Source of the DNA: Promineifilum sp.
GTDB taxonomy: Bacteria; Chloroflexota; Anaerolineae; Promineifilales; Promineifilaceae
DNA length: 64,000 bases
NCBI GenBank assembly: GCA_017983515.1
Contig: JAGOBF010000001.1
Coordinates: forward strand, 183,192-247,191
Direction: 5' to 3'
Shown: positions 26,328 to 32,890 of the stretch, one piece after another
Numbering within the stretch: position 1 is the stretch's first letter
How the letters are laid out: every line of letters begins with the position of its first letter
Translations under genes and position numbers: made by a program
The notes under the pieces: model-generated
The model's input: the letters and a program-made list of their open reading frames with translations, nothing else
What the model was told of the DNA's origin: nothing
Database searches by the model: none

Positions 26328-28684
26328 GCGTCGACGAAGTTACTAATCCCGAATTCCGAATGACGAATGAACCGCGCGCGGCCGCCGGCGGTCAATGGCC
26401 CCTGCTCGCTATCCTGATCGCCTTTCTGCTCCTGGGATTCGCCTACAGCGCCATCAACCCCCTGCACGAGGCCACCGACGAGCTGCGCCACTACCGCTTC
26501 GTACAGCATCTCATCCAGCGCCACTCGCTGCCGGTGCAGGGCGAGGCGGGTGGGCTGGACTGCACCGTGCAAGGCCATCACCCGCCGCTCTACTATTTGG
26601 CTGCTGCTCTGGTCACCGCCGGCATCGATACCGGCCGCGACCTGTGTTATCAGCCACCGGTCAACCCTTTCTGGGCCTACCGCTATTGGGAGGTCGGCCG
26701 CGACAACAAGAACCAATATCTCCACGGCCCCGACGAGGCCTTTCCCTGGCGCGGCGAAGCGCTGGCCGCGCATCTGGCCCGGGTGGTCAACCTGCTGTTC
26801 GGAGCGCTGACCGTGTGGCTGACGTGGGCCACGGCGCGCGTCATCTGGCCCCGTCGCCCATCGTTGGCCGCGGGGTCGGCGGCCTTCGTGGCCTTCAACC
26901 CCATGTTCCTTTATATGGCCGCGGCAATCAACAACGACGTCGTGGCCGCCGCCGCCGGCGCGGCCGTCATCTACGCCTGCGTCCGGCTGCTGCGCGATGA
27001 ACGCGGCCTGTCGTGGCGCTGGGGCGTGTGGCTGGGGGCGCTCTACGGCCTGGCCCTGATGAGCAAGTTCAATCTGGCGGCCATCATCGTCGTCATCGAG
27101 GCCGCCGTCACCTGGGTGGCCTGGCGGCGCGGCCAGTGGCGGCTGTGGCTGGCGGTGAACCTGCTGATCGCCGGCATGGCCGGGCTGATCGCTGGATGGT
27201 GGTTCGTTCGCAATCAATTGCTCTACGGCGAGCCGACTGGCTTTGAGAAGTTGACCGAACTGTGGGGCGTACGCGATCCGCGCGACAGCTTCCGGCTGGC
27301 CCTGTCGGAACTGCCCTACGCCTGGTCGAGCCTCTGGGGTCGTTTCGGCTATGGCCAGATCCCCCTGCCATCGTGGATCTACGCCGCCCTGTTCGGCGTG
27401 CTGCTGGCATCTGTGGGCGGCTACGTAAGAGGGGGTGTGCGGCGCAGAAAGAAGACGGCCGAGAAAGGGTCAGCAAGCGTTCCCCTGCTGCTCCTCGTCC
27501 TCAACGTAGCCCTCTTCTTCGCCGTGCTGTTCAACTACCTGCTGGTCAGTCCCGCCGGGCCGATGGGTCGCTTTTTCTTCCCTGCCCTGTCGTCGCTGGC
27601 AATACTGATGTTCTACGGCCTGACCTTGCTGGTGAACGGTAAAACTGAAGTGACGCAAGGCAAATTACGAACGGCGAACCAATCGCCCTCTTCACGGGTC
27701 ACTGATCGTTGGCGACTGGCCGTCATCACCAATCTATTGCTGCTGGCCCTCTCCCTGGTCGCCCTGTTCGGCTATCTCCGACCGGCCTACGCGCGGCCGC
27801 CGTCCTTCGCCGCCGCTGCCTCGCTGCCCAATCCGGTCGATGTCCGCTTCGATACGTTTGTCGCCCTGCGCGGTTACGCGGTCGATACCGAGCGCGTGCG
27901 GCCGGGCGAGCCGATCGGCATCGAGCTATACTGGGAAGTGCTGGGCACGCCGCCGGGCGACTATCTGCTCTTCGTCCACCTGATCGACGACGAGACCGGC
28001 GCGCTGGTGACCCAACGCGACACCTACCCCGGCCTGGGCAACTTCCCCAGCAGCCAATGGCGGCCGGGCGACCGCTTCGTCGAGCGCCTGCGCGTCTACC
28101 TGCCCGAGACGGCTTACGCGCCGGCCGCCGCCGCTCTCCGCATCGGCCTCTATGCCCCCGAAGGCTACCGGTTGGGCATCACCGACGGCGCGACCGGCGC
28201 GGGGCTGGGCGACGCTTTTCCCATCGGCCGCGTCGCCATCGATGCCCGCACATCCGACGAGGCCACCATCCCCAATCCCGGCCGCTACAACTTCGAGAAT
28301 CGCCTCCGGCTGCTGGGCTATGGCTACGGCGCGCGCGTTCTGGCCCCCGGCGCGCCGGCCGGTCTGACGCTCTATTGGGAGGCGTTGCGGCCGTCGCCGG
28401 GCGACTACGAGGTCCAGATCCGGCTGCTCGACGCCGGCGGCAACGTCCTCGCCACGCAGCAAGCCCGGCCGGGCAACGGCGCGCGCCCCACGACGGCCTG
28501 GCCGCCGGGTGAGGTCGTCGTGGAGACCTACCAGATTCCATTCGACGCGCCCGCGGGCACCTCCATTACACCGGAGATCATCCTGATCGATGCCGCCACG
28601 GGCGCGCGCCTCAATTTGATCGGCGACGACGGCCGCTGGCTCTTCGACTACCTTCGCCTGTCGCCCATCGTCATAACAGAATGA
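26324..28684 (+). CDS. GT-C-type membrane protein D with two C-terminal beta modules
   Basis: 786 residues from ATG 26324, which overlaps the stop of gene C; a longer Arg-rich frame upstream is noncoding. The N-terminal 17 residues derive partly from a GAATTCCGAATGACGAATG repeat. The first loop has LHEATDELRHYRFVQHLI, a GT-C/DUF2142-like acidic motif. About 11 helices follow, with a repeat-derived loop at residues about 442-464. The C-terminus carries two copies of the module (about 505-640 and 650-780; YWEVLGTPPGDYLLFVHLID and YWEALRPSPGDYEVQIRLLD), an internal duplication absent in its neighbours. Role: probable lipid-linked sugar transferase or carbohydrate-binding partner of B and C. Confidence 0.7.
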   Translation: MSVDEVTNPEFRMTNEPRAAAGGQWPLLAILIAFLLLGFAYSAINPLHEATDELRHYRFVQHLIQRHSLPVQGEAGGLDCTVQGHHPPLYYLAAALVTAGIDTGRDLCYQPPVNPFWAYRYWEVGRDNKNQYLHGPDEAFPWRGEALAAHLARVVNLLFGALTVWLTWATARVIWPRRPSLAAGSAAFVAFNPMFLYMAAAINNDVVAAAAGAAVIYACVRLLRDERGLSWRWGVWLGALYGLALMSKFNLAAIIVVIEAAVTWVAWRRGQWRLWLAVNLLIAGMAGLIAGWWFVRNQLLYGEPTGFEKLTELWGVRDPRDSFRLALSELPYAWSSLWGRFGYGQIPLPSWIYAALFGVLLASVGGYVRGGVRRRKKTAEKGSASVPLLLLVLNVALFFAVLFNYLLVSPAGPMGRFFFPALSSLAILMFYGLTLLVNGKTEVTQGKLRTANQSPSSRVTDRWRLAVITNLLLLALSLVALFGYLRPAYARPPSFAAAASLPNPVDVRFDTFVALRGYAVDTERVRPGEPIGIELYWEVLGTPPGDYLLFVHLIDDETGALVTQRDTYPGLGNFPSSQWRPGDRFVERLRVYLPETAYAPAAAALRIGLYAPEGYRLGITDGATGAGLGDAFPIGRVAIDARTSDEATIPNPGRYNFENRLRLLGYGYGARVLAPGAPAGLTLYWEALRPSPGDYEVQIRLLDAGGNVLATQQARPGNGARPTTAWPPGEVVVETYQIPFDAPAGTSITPEIILIDAATGARLNLIGDDGRWLFDYLRLSPIVITE
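26341..26370 (+). repeat. repeat element in the start of GT-C gene D
   Basis: AATCCCGAATTCCGAATGAC followed by GAATGA supplies residues TNPEFRMTNE of the protein. Same family as 15800-15830 and 16311-16438. Confidence 0.75.
27649..27714 (+). repeat. in-frame repeat inside GT-C gene D
   Basis: Mosaic of GTGACGCAAGG, AATTACGAACGG, and GGGTCACTGATCG words read in frame between helices. The last word also recurs in gaps such as 23307-23336. Confidence 0.6.
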
Positions 28685-28788
28685 CGCGTCGCCACCACCA
28701 TAGGACGAAAGTCCCGGCCCTTGTCGCGTTGCATGATATTGCCCCGCATTTGCCACCTTGATCGTAGGTTAATCGTTGCCTGCCTCCG

Positions 28789-28816
28789 TTGACAGGGTAG
28801 GGGGGCCTTGTATACT
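28789..28816 (+). promoter_or_regulatory. promoter upstream of the SWIM-type mini-protein
   Basis: Perfect TTGACA (28789-28794), a 16-nt spacer and TATACT (28811-28816). Transcription would start near 28823, well before the hairpin at 28871. Confidence 0.75.
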
Positions 28817-28870
28817 TAGTATATGGTGCTGAAAATAATTACAGCAGCCGACCGCAAAGTAACCTTATCT

Positions 28871-28903
28871 ACGCACGCCTGACCGCGTGCGTTTTTTGTT
28901 TTT
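28871..28903 (+). terminator. leader terminator or attenuator upstream of the SWIM gene
   Basis: ACGCACGC/GCGTGCGT stem with a 6-nt loop and TTTTTTGTTTTT. It lies between the promoter at 28789 and the gene start at 28950, so it would release an RNA of about 80 nt unless antitermination occurs. Control signal unknown. Confidence 0.8.
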
Positions 28904-28949
28904 ACCGTCTCAGAGGGTCGTTCAAGTCAATACAGAGGAGATACACGAC

Positions 28950-29198
28950 ATGGATTATGGGATGATCGGCAAGATTGAAAAGGCGAAGTTCTATGCGGAA
29001 GAACGCGATTTGCGCATTACCTTTCAATCGCTGGAGGCGAGTATCCTGGGCGACAACGATGTCACCCATCAGGTAACGTATGACGACGGTCAATGGCATT
29101 GTGACTGCAACTACTTCGGTTCGCATCAGGTTTGCAGCCACACCATGGCGATGGAGCGTGTCCTCGGCAATATGGTCGAGATGGGTGTTCCCGCCTAG
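28950..29198 (+). CDS. small SWIM-type zinc-finger protein
   Basis: 82 residues from ATG 28950 (AGAGGAG ribosome-binding site); a frame from 28887 would begin inside the leader hairpin. The C-terminal half has CDC-x8-CSH (C51, C53, C62, H64), the CxCxnCxH zinc ligand pattern of the SWIM domain that binds DNA or proteins. The N-terminal half is a small beta-rich stretch (KAKFYAEERDLRITFQSL). No partner gene is evident. An intrinsic terminator follows, so it is a single-gene unit. Confidence 0.75.
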   Translation: MDYGMIGKIEKAKFYAEERDLRITFQSLEASILGDNDVTHQVTYDDGQWHCDCNYFGSHQVCSHTMAMERVLGNMVEMGVPA

Positions 29199-29230
29199 CC
29201 GCCTCAACCAACCACCCAAGATATCCGCAA

Positions 29231-29266
29231 CGTGCCCTGTTTCTGCGAAAAACAGGGCACGTTTCC
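29231..29266 (+). terminator. terminator after the SWIM gene
   Basis: CGTGCCCTGTTT/AAACAGGGCACG stem (29231-29261) followed by TTTCC. Confidence 0.85.
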
Positions 29267-29310
29267 TTATAATAGGGGCATGAGAAAAGAGAGCCTGGCC
29301 GCAGAGAAGG

Positions 29311-29366
29311 CGGATTTCGCGGATTGAAGAACTCATGCTTGAAATCGGCCTGATCTGCGGATAAAA
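29311..29366. repeat. dispersed repeat pair, CGGATTTCGCGGATT and GATCTGCGGATAAAA
   Basis: Two short members of the intergenic family in the 29267-29403 gap. Confidence 0.55.
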
Positions 29367-29403
29367 CTTTTCTTCGTTCGACTTCGATTGTTTGGAGGCT
29401 TCG

Positions 29404-29724
29404 ATGACCTATGTGACACGGCCGGCCAACCATGCCGGCGCGCGGCCCGATAAATTCTACAAGACCACCCTCTTTCGTGGCGACGCGCTTATGCTCGGCC
29501 TCAACTGCCTGGAGCCGGGGCAAACCCAGGCGGCCCACGACCATGCCGATCAGGACAAGTTCTACTTCGTCGTGGGCGGAACCGGCCGCTTCCAGGTGGG
29601 CGACGAGCTGTTCACCGCCCGGGAGGGCGAACTCGTCTGGGCCCCGGCCGGCGTCATCCACGGCGTCACCAACGACGGCCTGCTCCGCCTGACCCTGCTG
29701 GTCGGCATCGCCCCCGCACCATGA
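29404..29724 (+). CDS. cupin-domain protein
   Basis: 106 residues from ATG 29404 (GGAGG site). A single small cupin barrel: metal ligands H45, H47 (AAHDHADQDKFYFVV) and H86 (PAGVIHGV), with the second motif GELVWAPAGVIHGVTN. Substrate is not evident; such mini-cupins act as isomerases, oxygenases or small-molecule binders. The last 4 nt overlap the CPBP gene start, implying coupling. Confidence 0.85.
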   Translation: MTYVTRPANHAGARPDKFYKTTLFRGDALMLGLNCLEPGQTQAAHDHADQDKFYFVVGGTGRFQVGDELFTAREGELVWAPAGVIHGVTNDGLLRLTLLVGIAPAP

Positions 29725-30356
29725 AAGACGGCCGCATCACCCTGGGCGGCGTCGAGTTCGACGTCCGCCTGACCTTGCTCATCATCTTCTGCACCCTCGT
29801 GCCCATGCTCGACTACTACGGCCATAGCCCCACCGGCGTCAAAGCCTGGGATCGCTTCATCTTCTACTTTCTGGGGTCGGCGCTGTTCATCTGGGCCGTC
29901 TACCGCGAACCGCTGTCTAACTTCGGCTTCGGCTGGGGCGATTGGCGGCGCGGGCTGCTCTACACAGCCGTAGCCTGTGGCGCGATGGCGCTGATCCTAT
30001 GGTTTGCCGCCCGCTCCCCGGCCATGCAATCCTTCTATCAGGGGCGCGCCCCCGACGGCTTGGGCCGGGCCACCGTTCTCAACGGTGTGGAGCTGTTCGG
30101 CTGGGAATTCGTCTGGCGGGGACTGGCGCTCTTTGCCTTCGCCCGCGCCTTCGGCCCTGGCCCGGCCATCTTCCTGCAAGCCGTGCCCTTCGCCTTCATG
30201 CATCTGGGCAAGCCGGAGATCGAGACCCTCAGCACCATTTTCGGCGGCGCGGCCTTCGGCTACATCGCCTGGCGGACGCGCTCGTTTGTCTACCCCTGGC
30301 TCATCCACTGGTTCGTCGTCACGTTTACCCTGCTTGTCACCACCGGCGCTATCTAA
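29721..30356 (+). CDS. CPBP-type intramembrane protease-like protein
   Basis: 211 residues with five or six hydrophobic segments. Three CPBP motifs are visible: FGWEFVWRGLALF (E129-x3-R133; the first Glu of the usual EExxxR is Trp128), FAFMHLGKP (H161) and LIHWFVV (H196). Members with a full set act as Rce1-like membrane proteases or bacteriocin-immunity proteins; loss of the first Glu makes activity uncertain. Translation is coupled to the upstream cupin. Confidence 0.75.
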   Translation: MKDGRITLGGVEFDVRLTLLIIFCTLVPMLDYYGHSPTGVKAWDRFIFYFLGSALFIWAVYREPLSNFGFGWGDWRRGLLYTAVACGAMALILWFAARSPAMQSFYQGRAPDGLGRATVLNGVELFGWEFVWRGLALFAFARAFGPGPAIFLQAVPFAFMHLGKPEIETLSTIFGGAAFGYIAWRTRSFVYPWLIHWFVVTFTLLVTTGAI

Positions 30357-30424
30357 ACCTCTCGTTCCCCATTCGATGACACCCCGCCCCACATCGGGTA
30401 AAATGACTCCGGAGGTATTCCCGC

Positions 30425-32890
30425 ATGACTGAAATGGATGGTAAGTATTTTCTGGGCAAGGTCTGGGATCCCCAGACGGGCGACTTAACCGATGAGACCC
30501 TGCGCTACGATTCCGAGGATCTGACGACCCACGCCGTCGTCGTGGGCATGACCGGCTCCGGCAAGACCGGCCTGTGCGTCGGCTTGCTGGAAGAAGCGGC
30601 CCTCAATCAGGTTCCGGCCCTGATGATCGACCCCAAGGGCGATCTGACCAACCTGTTGCTGCATTTCCCCGGTCTCTTGCCGGGCGACTTCCAACCGTGG
30701 ATCGACGCCGCCGCGGCCCGGAAAGAGGGCAAGACGGAGGAACAGGCCGCGGCCGAGACGGCCGACATGTGGCGCAACGGCCTGGCCGAATGGGGCATCG
30801 GCCCCGAACGCCTCCAGAAGCTGGCCGACAGCGTCGACTTCACCATCTATACCCCCGGCTCCACCGCCGGCGTCCCGCTCAGCGTCCTGGCCTCCCTCGG
30901 CGCGCCCGCCCTGCCGTGGGAAGGCAACGAGGAAGTCCTGGCCGAACAGATCAGCGGCATGGTGACGGCCCTGCTCAGCCTCACGGGCCTGAAGGACATC
31001 GACCCCGTCCAGAGCCGCGAACACATCCTCCTGTCCAATATTCTGGCCGACGCCTGGCGCCAAGGCCACAACCTCGACCTGGGCGAGTTGATCATGCGAA
31101 TCCAGACGCCGCCCTTCGCCAAACTCGGCGTGCTCGATGTCAACTCGTTCTTCCCGGAGAAAGACCGCTTCGGGCTGGCCATGCGCATCAACAGCATGCT
31201 GGCCTCGCCCAGCTTCCAGACGTGGATGGAGGGCGAACCGCTCGATGTGCAGGCCCTGCTCTACACGCCCGACGGCCGGCCGCGCCACTCTATCTTCTAC
31301 ATCGCCCACCTCAGCGAAGAAGAGCGCATGTTTTTCGTGACGCTGCTCTACGCCAACATCGAGACGTGGATGCGCGCCCAAAGCGGCTCCACGTCGCTGC
31401 GGGCCATCGTCTACTTCGACGAGATCTTCGGCTACATGCCGCCCCTGGGCAATCCACCCTCCAAGACGGGCATGCTGCGCATGTTGAAGCAGGCCCGCGC
31501 TTTCGGCGTCGGCATGGTGCTGGCGACACAAAACCCGGTCGATGTCGATTACAAGGGGCTGTCAAACGCGGGCACGTGGTTCATCGGCAAGCTGGGCACC
31601 GAGCAGGACAAGGCCCGCCTGCTCGACGGCCTGACCAGCGCCACCGCCGGAGCCGTCGACGTGAAGGAACTCGACCGCCTCATCTCCGGCATCGGCAAGC
31701 GCGTCTTTCTGATGCGCAACGTGCACGATAAAAAGCCGCTGCTCTTCCAGACGCGCTGGGCCATGAACTATCTGGCCGGCCCGCTGACCCGCACCCAGAT
31801 ACCGGCATTGAACGCGCTGAGAGGCGCCGGCCGAACCGCCGCCCCCGCGCCCTCGCCGGTCAGGCCGGCCGCCCCCGGCACGCCGGAGTCCACCGGCACG
31901 ATCACCCGGCCGCCCGTGCCCAGCGGCGCAGGGGAATATTTCCTGCCGGCCAATCTGACGCTGAGCGAAGCGGCCGAAGCCCACCGCTACCCCATCGACC
32001 CCGGCGCGCGCGAGTCCGGCATCGTCTACCGTCCGGCGCTGCTGGGCCAGGCCGACGTGCGCCTGACCAACGTCAAATACGCGCTCAATACCGACATGAC
32101 CTGGACGGCGCTCATCTACGAGTCGGACCTCACGCCCCCCGTTCGCTGGGAGGACAATCACAACCCGCCGGTCGACGACCGCAAGCTGGAACGCGCTCCG
32201 ATCCACGACGCGCGATTTGCTTCCCTGGCCGGCCCGCTGGCCGACGCCAAGATGCTGCGCGCGCTGGAAACTGACTTCGTCGACTACGTCGTGCGTAACG
32301 GCGCGGTCACCATTCGGGCCAACGCCAAGCTGAAGGTCTATGGTGGGCCGGAAATGAGCGATGCGGATTTTGCCAAGCTGTGCGAGGATGCCGCCGACGA
32401 CCTGATGCAGGTTGAACTCGACAAGGTGAAAGCCCGCTTCGAGACCCGGCTGAAGTCGGTCGAAGAGAAGATGAAGAAAGAAGAGCGCGAGCTGGCCGAA
32501 GATGAGGCCGAATTCAAATCGCGCAAGGGCGAGGAATACGCCAAACATGCCGAGACGCTGCTGAGCTTGTTCGGCGGCCGTCGCAAGAGCCTCTCCTCTT
32601 CGCTATCCAAACGGCGCATGGCCGAGAAGGCCAAGGCCGACATCGAAGAGTCAGAGCAGGCCATCGCCGACATGCAGGAGCAGCTGGGCGACCTGAAGAG
32701 CGAGATGGAAATGGCTCTCGATGAAGTCGAGGCCAAGTACGACGCCCTCATTGCCGATACGAAAGAAGTGCCGGTTGCTCCCAAAAAGACCGACGTGCGC
32801 GTGGGCATGTTCGGCGTGGCCTGGGTTCCGCACTACCTTGTGGAGAGCGGCGGCCGCACGCTGGAAATCCCCGCCTACGCCGCCGAGTGA
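30425..32890 (+). CDS. HerA/FtsK-type P-loop ATPase with C-terminal coiled coil
   Basis: 821 residues. Walker A is GMTGSGKTG (41-49), the signature MIDPKGDLTNLL follows, and Walker B is IVYFDEIFGYMPP (about 329-341). The ATQNPVDVDYKGLSNAGTWF stretch is typical of HerA-like DNA-pumping ATPases. After about residue 470 there is a Pro/Ala linker, then a domain without known signature and a long charged coiled coil (about 660-790, KEERELAEDEAEFKSRKGEE). GGAGGT precedes the ATG. No NurA-like nuclease is adjacent, so it may act alone in DNA or protein translocation. Function unproven. Confidence 0.8.
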   Translation: MTEMDGKYFLGKVWDPQTGDLTDETLRYDSEDLTTHAVVVGMTGSGKTGLCVGLLEEAALNQVPALMIDPKGDLTNLLLHFPGLLPGDFQPWIDAAAARKEGKTEEQAAAETADMWRNGLAEWGIGPERLQKLADSVDFTIYTPGSTAGVPLSVLASLGAPALPWEGNEEVLAEQISGMVTALLSLTGLKDIDPVQSREHILLSNILADAWRQGHNLDLGELIMRIQTPPFAKLGVLDVNSFFPEKDRFGLAMRINSMLASPSFQTWMEGEPLDVQALLYTPDGRPRHSIFYIAHLSEEERMFFVTLLYANIETWMRAQSGSTSLRAIVYFDEIFGYMPPLGNPPSKTGMLRMLKQARAFGVGMVLATQNPVDVDYKGLSNAGTWFIGKLGTEQDKARLLDGLTSATAGAVDVKELDRLISGIGKRVFLMRNVHDKKPLLFQTRWAMNYLAGPLTRTQIPALNALRGAGRTAAPAPSPVRPAAPGTPESTGTITRPPVPSGAGEYFLPANLTLSEAAEAHRYPIDPGARESGIVYRPALLGQADVRLTNVKYALNTDMTWTALIYESDLTPPVRWEDNHNPPVDDRKLERAPIHDARFASLAGPLADAKMLRALETDFVDYVVRNGAVTIRANAKLKVYGGPEMSDADFAKLCEDAADDLMQVELDKVKARFETRLKSVEEKMKKEERELAEDEAEFKSRKGEEYAKHAETLLSLFGGRRKSLSSSLSKRRMAEKAKADIEESEQAIADMQEQLGDLKSEMEMALDEVEAKYDALIADTKEVPVAPKKTDVRVGMFGVAWVPHYLVESGGRTLEIPAYAAE

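Follow-up and report, generated by a model that had tools for sequence, protein, structure and literature searches.

In the window, a 64,000-nt stretch of a Promineifilum genome (Chloroflexota) analysed here as a whole, an intrinsic terminator stands between a near-consensus promoter and the gene for a SWIM-type zinc-finger mini-protein. How might transcription pass this terminator, and what would decide whether it does? A clue lies in an element absent from the initial annotation of this DNA, a short reading frame, probably leaderless, that lies between the promoter and the terminator.

Anatomy of the leader and its spread

The promoter, TTGACA-16-TATACT, occupies 28789–28816 on the + strand and agrees with the consensus at 11 of 12 positions. 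In a consensus scan of 27500–30500, no other + strand promoter-like site was found before 30376, and none between the terminator hairpin and the SWIM gene. An ATG lies 6 nt past the last base of the −10 box and opens a 19-codon frame (28823–28882, +; MVLKIITAADRKVTLSTHA), recognized by translation and by its spacing and stop position in relatives. Its stop codon, TGA at 28880–28882, is sited in the loop of the terminator. Transcription is predicted to start at 28823, the A of this ATG. As the ATG stands where transcription is expected to begin, the nascent RNA probably begins with AUG, and from this spacing we infer that the frame is leaderless.

The terminator is a hairpin of 8 bp with a 6-nt loop (28871–28892, +), found by terminator scan, folding and class comparison. 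The scan placed TTTTTGTTTT directly 3' of the hairpin, and the U-tract (TTTTTGTTTTT), recognized from the sequence and the scan, extends over 28893–28903 (+). Folding of 28868–28895 gave −13.8 kcal/mol (z −5.05), with 0 of 200 shuffles as good. A simple terminator scan over 3 kb was not above chance (1 found vs a shuffle mean of 2.2); the terminator is significant because of the comparison across class loci, not because of the 3-kb scan alone.

The SWIM gene (28950–29198, +) has 82 codons and is preceded by a Shine-Dalgarno sequence, AGAGGAG (28934–28940, +), read from the sequence; similar AG-rich sites were seen by eye in relatives. The assignment of the 82-aa product draws on its relatives, on a sub-threshold match to Pfam SWIM (PF04434; 17.7 bits vs a cut-off of 19.6, E 0.0026) and on the residues C51, C53, C62 and H64, which form a CxC(n)CxH pattern and are invariant in 20 aligned proteins (the window's and 19 others). 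The predicted fold is a confident model (pLDDT 90.0). It had no match in the Protein Data Bank at E ≤ 0.001, and NCBIfam returned only a far sub-threshold Snf2-family match. The promoter, the U-tract hairpin and the mini-gene were thus all found where the initial annotation had placed them.

On the 3' side of the SWIM gene, a long hairpin with a 13-nt loop (ACGTGCCCTG...CAGGGCACGT; 29230–29262), which the scan did not report, is perhaps the gene's own terminator. A resembling hairpin was seen by eye in two other loci (L004 and L005).

Relatives of the SWIM protein were found in 89 of the 98 nearest genomes, in 209/249 genomes of the class and in 70 of 91 phylum-sampled genomes, that is, in 59 of the 80 outside the class. 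A tandem pair of SWIM matches in one frame of about 170–175 codons was observed in L089 (genome G074), L115 (G246), L167 (G257) and genome G210. Neighboring genes were compared in 80 named loci, the clusters being named by eye. They include a CPBP/Rce1-like protease (19), a YbhN-like membrane protein (19), an FAD oxidoreductase-like protein (18), a cupin (9) and glycosyltransferase-like genes; Pfam supplied the assignment of the cupin and the Rce1-like protein that neighbor the window's SWIM gene. The neighborhood in these 80 loci gave no pointer to a target of the SWIM protein.

For the class comparison, 191 loci were reduced to 180 by removing 11 (8 repeats and 3 loci from the pattern search), and 178 of these have at least 100 nt upstream, the other 2 being shorter. 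A promoter scoring at least 11 was present in 145 of the 178 and absent from 33, compared with 0 of 534 dinucleotide shuffles. Between promoter and gene, a terminator hairpin with dG ≤ −10 was found in 143 of the 145 loci against 63/435 shuffles; the hairpins were picked by folding, so they are paired by construction and the shuffle counts serve as the control. The hairpin sequences vary between families. The promoter–terminator–SWIM arrangement occurs widely across the class.

The short frame and the position of its stop codon

In the window's family, 43 of 46 loci had both promoter and terminator when 320 nt were considered. A tabulation over about 300 nt covered 41 of the 46, four being without promoter or terminator and one too short. 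An ATG is found 5–8 nt past the −10 box in 43/43 family leaders, and the spacing is 6 or 7 nt in each of the 41 tabulated. The frame that it opens has 10–21 codons in 38 of 43; in 39 of 43 its stop lies between −15 and +20 nt relative to the first G-C pair of the hairpin, compared with 0 and 9 for the other two frames. Among 28 non-redundant leaders the count was 26, the other frames giving 0 and 6; shuffling the sequence between start and hairpin of the same 28 gave 6.9 ± 2.0, with a maximum of 14 in 500 rounds. As exceptions, two of the 41 loci have the stop 35 nt beyond the start of the hairpin and one has it 51 nt beyond, so that the frame reads through, while in locus L012 it is 16 nt upstream of the hairpin. 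The distance from stop to U-tract has a median of 26 nt in 39 family loci and 30 nt in 52 others. Its narrow spread was dropped as evidence, the loci having been preselected for a stop near the hairpin.

The encoded peptides vary between genera. In close family leaders, the substitutions at codon positions 1, 2 and 3 numbered 95, 86 and 71 of 451, respectively, and this spread points to no protein-type constraint on the peptide. The richest five-residue window held two identical residues in 35 of the 43 family peptides and three in 8, a rough measure, as the arg leader described below also reaches only three (by eye). No clustered residue recurs across the loci of these 43. Selection appears to act in the main on the frame and its stop position rather than on the peptide sequence, and the leaders form a natural series in this respect.

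Outside the family, starts were picked by Shine-Dalgarno score or as an ATG 5–8 nt past the −10 box, blind to the stop, and this rule is crude. It left 9 of 100 loci without a start; among the 91 chosen starts, 85 are led by a Shine-Dalgarno sequence and 6 are ATGs 5–8 nt past the −10 box. The stop was at the hairpin in 52 of the 91, compared with 9 and 19 for the other frames. After removal of redundancy the count was 43 of 78 (35 not), against 7 and 17 in the other frames and 24.1 ± 3.1 (maximum 35) in shuffles of the 78 loci. Outside the class, 59 phylum-sampled genomes matched, and 40 of these were taken in. A terminator was found by script in 23 of their 40 leaders, with a Shine-Dalgarno-led start in 20 of these; 12 of the 20 frames stop at the hairpin vs 1 and 6 in the other frames, counts that carry no shuffle control. 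In several leaders the stop codon was seen by eye inside a hairpin arm, as CAC-TAG or CAC-TGA in GGCACTAGG-type stems. As judged from these sequences, the other families mostly have Shine-Dalgarno-led versions of the predicted arrangement, and it is also present in other classes.

Proposed attenuation and its alternatives

The DNA elements of a ribosome-mediated attenuator are present in the window: promoter, short frame, intrinsic terminator and gene. These elements, the stop position and their conservation are read from the sequence. We consider it fairly probable that the leader is a ribosome-dependent transcription attenuator placed before the SWIM gene. The RNA would start at the A of the ATG at 28823 and open with the leaderless 19-codon frame. 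With no ribosome close behind, the hairpin at 28871–28892 would fold, the polymerase would halt in the U-tract and an RNA would be released, whose length, given the predicted start, would be about 77 nt. If a ribosome loaded on the 5' AUG has reached the stop codon while the polymerase is at the U-tract, it would cover the 5' arm and keep the terminator from forming, and the SWIM gene would be transcribed. The sequence of the peptide would not matter; what would count is the length, the frame and the position of the stop. Such a switch would report not one amino acid but the coupling of transcription and translation (a slow polymerase, or ribosomes that are abundant or slow to be released).

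The geometry of the leaders is consistent with this proposal. A terminating ribosome, with the stop codon in its A site, is estimated to mask half or more of the 5' arm in 34 of 43 family leaders and a smaller part in 9, assuming a leading edge 10 nt past the stop codon; a leading edge of up to 12 is given in the part of PMC4833913 drawn on here. In E. coli, as described in the portions of PMC4824070 used here, the ribosome represses a terminator a few bp past a stop codon almost completely, uncoupling translation abolishes the repression, and the effect is gone beyond about 27–30 nt, with some sequence dependence. Since the SWIM leaders lie mostly inside this repressed zone and half or more of the arm would be covered in 34 of 43, a close ribosome would be expected to give read-through. 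According to the same portions, a terminator lying in the first 100 bp of a gene is usually spared this repression, since the ribosome still lags behind; polymerase pausing, as at pyrBI, is an exception (PMC4824070). Termination is therefore the likely default in the SWIM leader, and a polymerase that slows or pauses, or rapid leaderless initiation, would be the likely inducing condition. We infer that the frame is translated, that its ribosome occludes the hairpin directly and that the response has this sign.

A small hairpin lies within the short frame (28825–28849, +; GGUGCUG...CAGCA-G-CC), as found by folding. It is visible by eye in the genus, being identical in loci L001–L005 and shifted in L006, and is weakly supported over 30 family loci, where the frame itself is a little more strongly folded than shuffles (mean z −0.62 ± 0.18). 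The small hairpin might possibly pause RNA polymerase. In addition, the RNA ahead of the 3' arm showed a small gain in stability over shuffles in 29 of 43 leaders (mean −9.4 vs −8.4). These two small excesses make a minor structural role within the frame possible.

The alternative that survives best is an attenuator of the whiB7 or antibiotic-leader type, in which ribosomes stalled by drugs or starvation within the short frame or at its end would block the terminator and induce the gene, and the SWIM protein would be a stress-response regulator. It shares the anatomy of promoter, short frame, terminator and small metal-binding protein; whiB7 is induced upon ribosome stalling in its uORF, as stated in the part of PMC13236596 used here, and uORF-dependent attenuation is described at a small DUF1127 gene of S. 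meliloti in the corresponding part of PMC12218461. Nevertheless, the family peptides share no residue cluster (at most three identical residues per five-residue window, in 8/43), no RNA structure was found that competes for the 5' arm, and direct masking of the hairpin would require a stall at the stop or in the last codons. We regard it as unlikely.

Control of the terminator by RNA alone, or by a trans-acting antiterminator (ligand or protein) with the frame being incidental, is very improbable. A terminator in the leader is a usual expression platform of riboswitches, which fits this alternative, as does the weak excess structure in the leader. However, the initial annotation had recognized no riboswitch pattern, and indeed no Rfam family matched at gathering score in the window, only sub-gathering matches being found near the leader. 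Pairing of the terminator 5' arm with upstream sequence averaged 0.33 over 43 family leaders, below the 0.43 of shuffles, so a competing RNA antiterminator is not supported; none was evident in the fold of the window's leader either. By eye, the segments between promoter and hairpin are unlike between genera, whereas the frame and its stop position are conserved. A ribosome is more likely to act as the antiterminator than a competing RNA structure. That annotation had proposed that either an RNA of about 80 nt is made alone or an antiterminator gates the gene. Its reading is partly borne out: both are likely, as the two outcomes of one attenuator, and what it lacked is the short, probably leaderless frame.

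A separate leaderless micro-protein gene in the short frame, the SWIM gene being served by read-through or by another promoter, is hardly to be expected. Promoter, start, stop and terminator do make a complete tiny transcription unit, and some ordinary terminators overlap the preceding gene, by the account in part of PMC4824070. Against this, the peptides vary between genera with no third-position excess of changes, the stop falls at or inside the hairpin, 143 of the 178 class leaders have the unit ahead of the SWIM gene, and the scan gave no promoter-like site between hairpin and gene. A conserved micro-protein is unsupported by the codon-position changes. An amino-acid attenuator of the trp/his type was rejected, as the SWIM leaders lack its three defining features: no one-amino-acid codon cluster was found in the 43 family peptides and no antiterminator pairing exclusive with the 5' arm in the 43 leaders, and the stop is not more than 20 nt before the hairpin, the frame overlapping it by 12 nt in the window and ending within −15 to +20 in 39 of 43.

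For the ribosome-dependent attenuator, a further step is tentative and rather doubtful: that it is an ancient, phylum-wide and sequence-blind coupling sensor, a minimal frame with its stop codon fixed at a terminator arm and leaderless in one family, which induces SWIM as a general regulator, the counterpart in Chloroflexota of WhiB7. If the coupling-sensor reading is true, SWIM would be turned on when polymerase slows or ribosomes crowd. A widespread mini-protein would gain a concrete and testable control circuit, and, if occlusion holds, the leader would be a minimal natural reporter of transcription–translation coupling outside model bacteria.

Comparison with known attenuators

Searching the genome for TTGAC-n-NTANNNT-N6/7-ATG gave 15 sites (8 and 7 per strand), compared with 0 and 1 for the reversed-pattern control. 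Besides the SWIM leader, 14 sites remain, and four of them look like leaderless leader peptides whose codon clusters match the amino acid of the downstream gene: THHHHP before hisG, RRPRPP before argC, AAAA before alaS and LLLGALL before leuS. Each is followed by a terminator and then by the gene. The His leader, L281 (MLLTCASTGWLGRPTHHHHPMVVERCPG), lies on contig C21 (63689–63727, +), the Arg leader, L279, on C17 (55930–55967, −), the Ala leader, L272, on C2 (38807–38844, +) and the Leu leader, L274, on C10 (56021–56060, −); the last two are attenuator arrangements for tRNA synthetases. Gene names come from NCBIfam matches to the first 250 residues, with argC and hisG scoring above the curated cut-off and alaS (E 4e-102) and leuS (E 4e-100) below the full-length cut-off. 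In the fold of L279, the last part of the argC leader frame is base-paired with the terminator 5' arm. Two genes for HTH-type regulators, L273 (contig C3) and L277 (C13), ArsR-like and PadR-like by eye, have their own ATG 6–7 nt past a −10 box and are possibly leaderless. Leaderless leader peptides are thus suggested at several genes of one Chloroflexota genome.

The four amino-acid leaders share with the SWIM leader the promoter-N6/7-ATG and the terminator before the gene. In contrast to the SWIM frame, which overlaps its hairpin by 12 nt, they have codon clusters matching the gene and stops 23–48 nt before the hairpin (hisG 38, argC 28, alaS 48 and leuS 23 nt). Terminators of amino-acid attenuators are stated to keep more than 20 bp from the stop codon in the part of PMC4824070 drawn on here. 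An attenuator RNA that opens with the ATG of its leader frame, as predicted for SWIM, is also described for trpL of S. meliloti, with the RNA 5' end at the ATG and a leader of 14 aa (the relevant part of PMC7298713), and leaderless polycysteine leader peptides are reported from mycobacteria. The trpL and polycysteine leaders respond to an amino acid, while the SWIM leader has no recurring residue.

Among the matches listed in the open-licence literature on SWIM proteins, leaderless transcripts and leader peptides in Chloroflexi and Anaerolineae, no description of the SWIM-leader arrangement was found. Leaderless leader peptides and ribosome-mediated attenuation are both already known; the comparison suggests that the SWIM variant is apparently new.

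The protein encoded by whiB7/wblC of Actinobacteria is presumably unrelated to the SWIM mini-protein. In the attenuators ampC and pyrE of E. coli, the leader ribosome directly occludes the terminator, as proposed for the SWIM leader; they differ in controlling other genes in another phylum and in not being leaderless. The whiB7/wblC leaders resemble that of SWIM in having a short frame and a hairpin before a small metal-binding protein, and their induction passes through ribosome stalling, as given in part of PMC13236596, while no competing structure was found in the SWIM leader.

At pyrBI of E. coli, a closely following ribosome prevents the terminator, so that coupling counts and not a codon cluster, as set out in parts of PMC5021804 and PMC4824070. 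Its leader frame, pyrL, is described there as 135 bp long and as containing its terminator, while the SWIM frames of the window's family have mostly 10–21 codons and stop at the hairpin. The SWIM leader differs further in being predicted leaderless, in preceding a gene not concerned with pyrimidines and in having no U-rich pause stretch in the window by eye. The anatomy of the SWIM leader is that of ribosome-mediated attenuation, and its proposed logic is closest to that of pyrBI.
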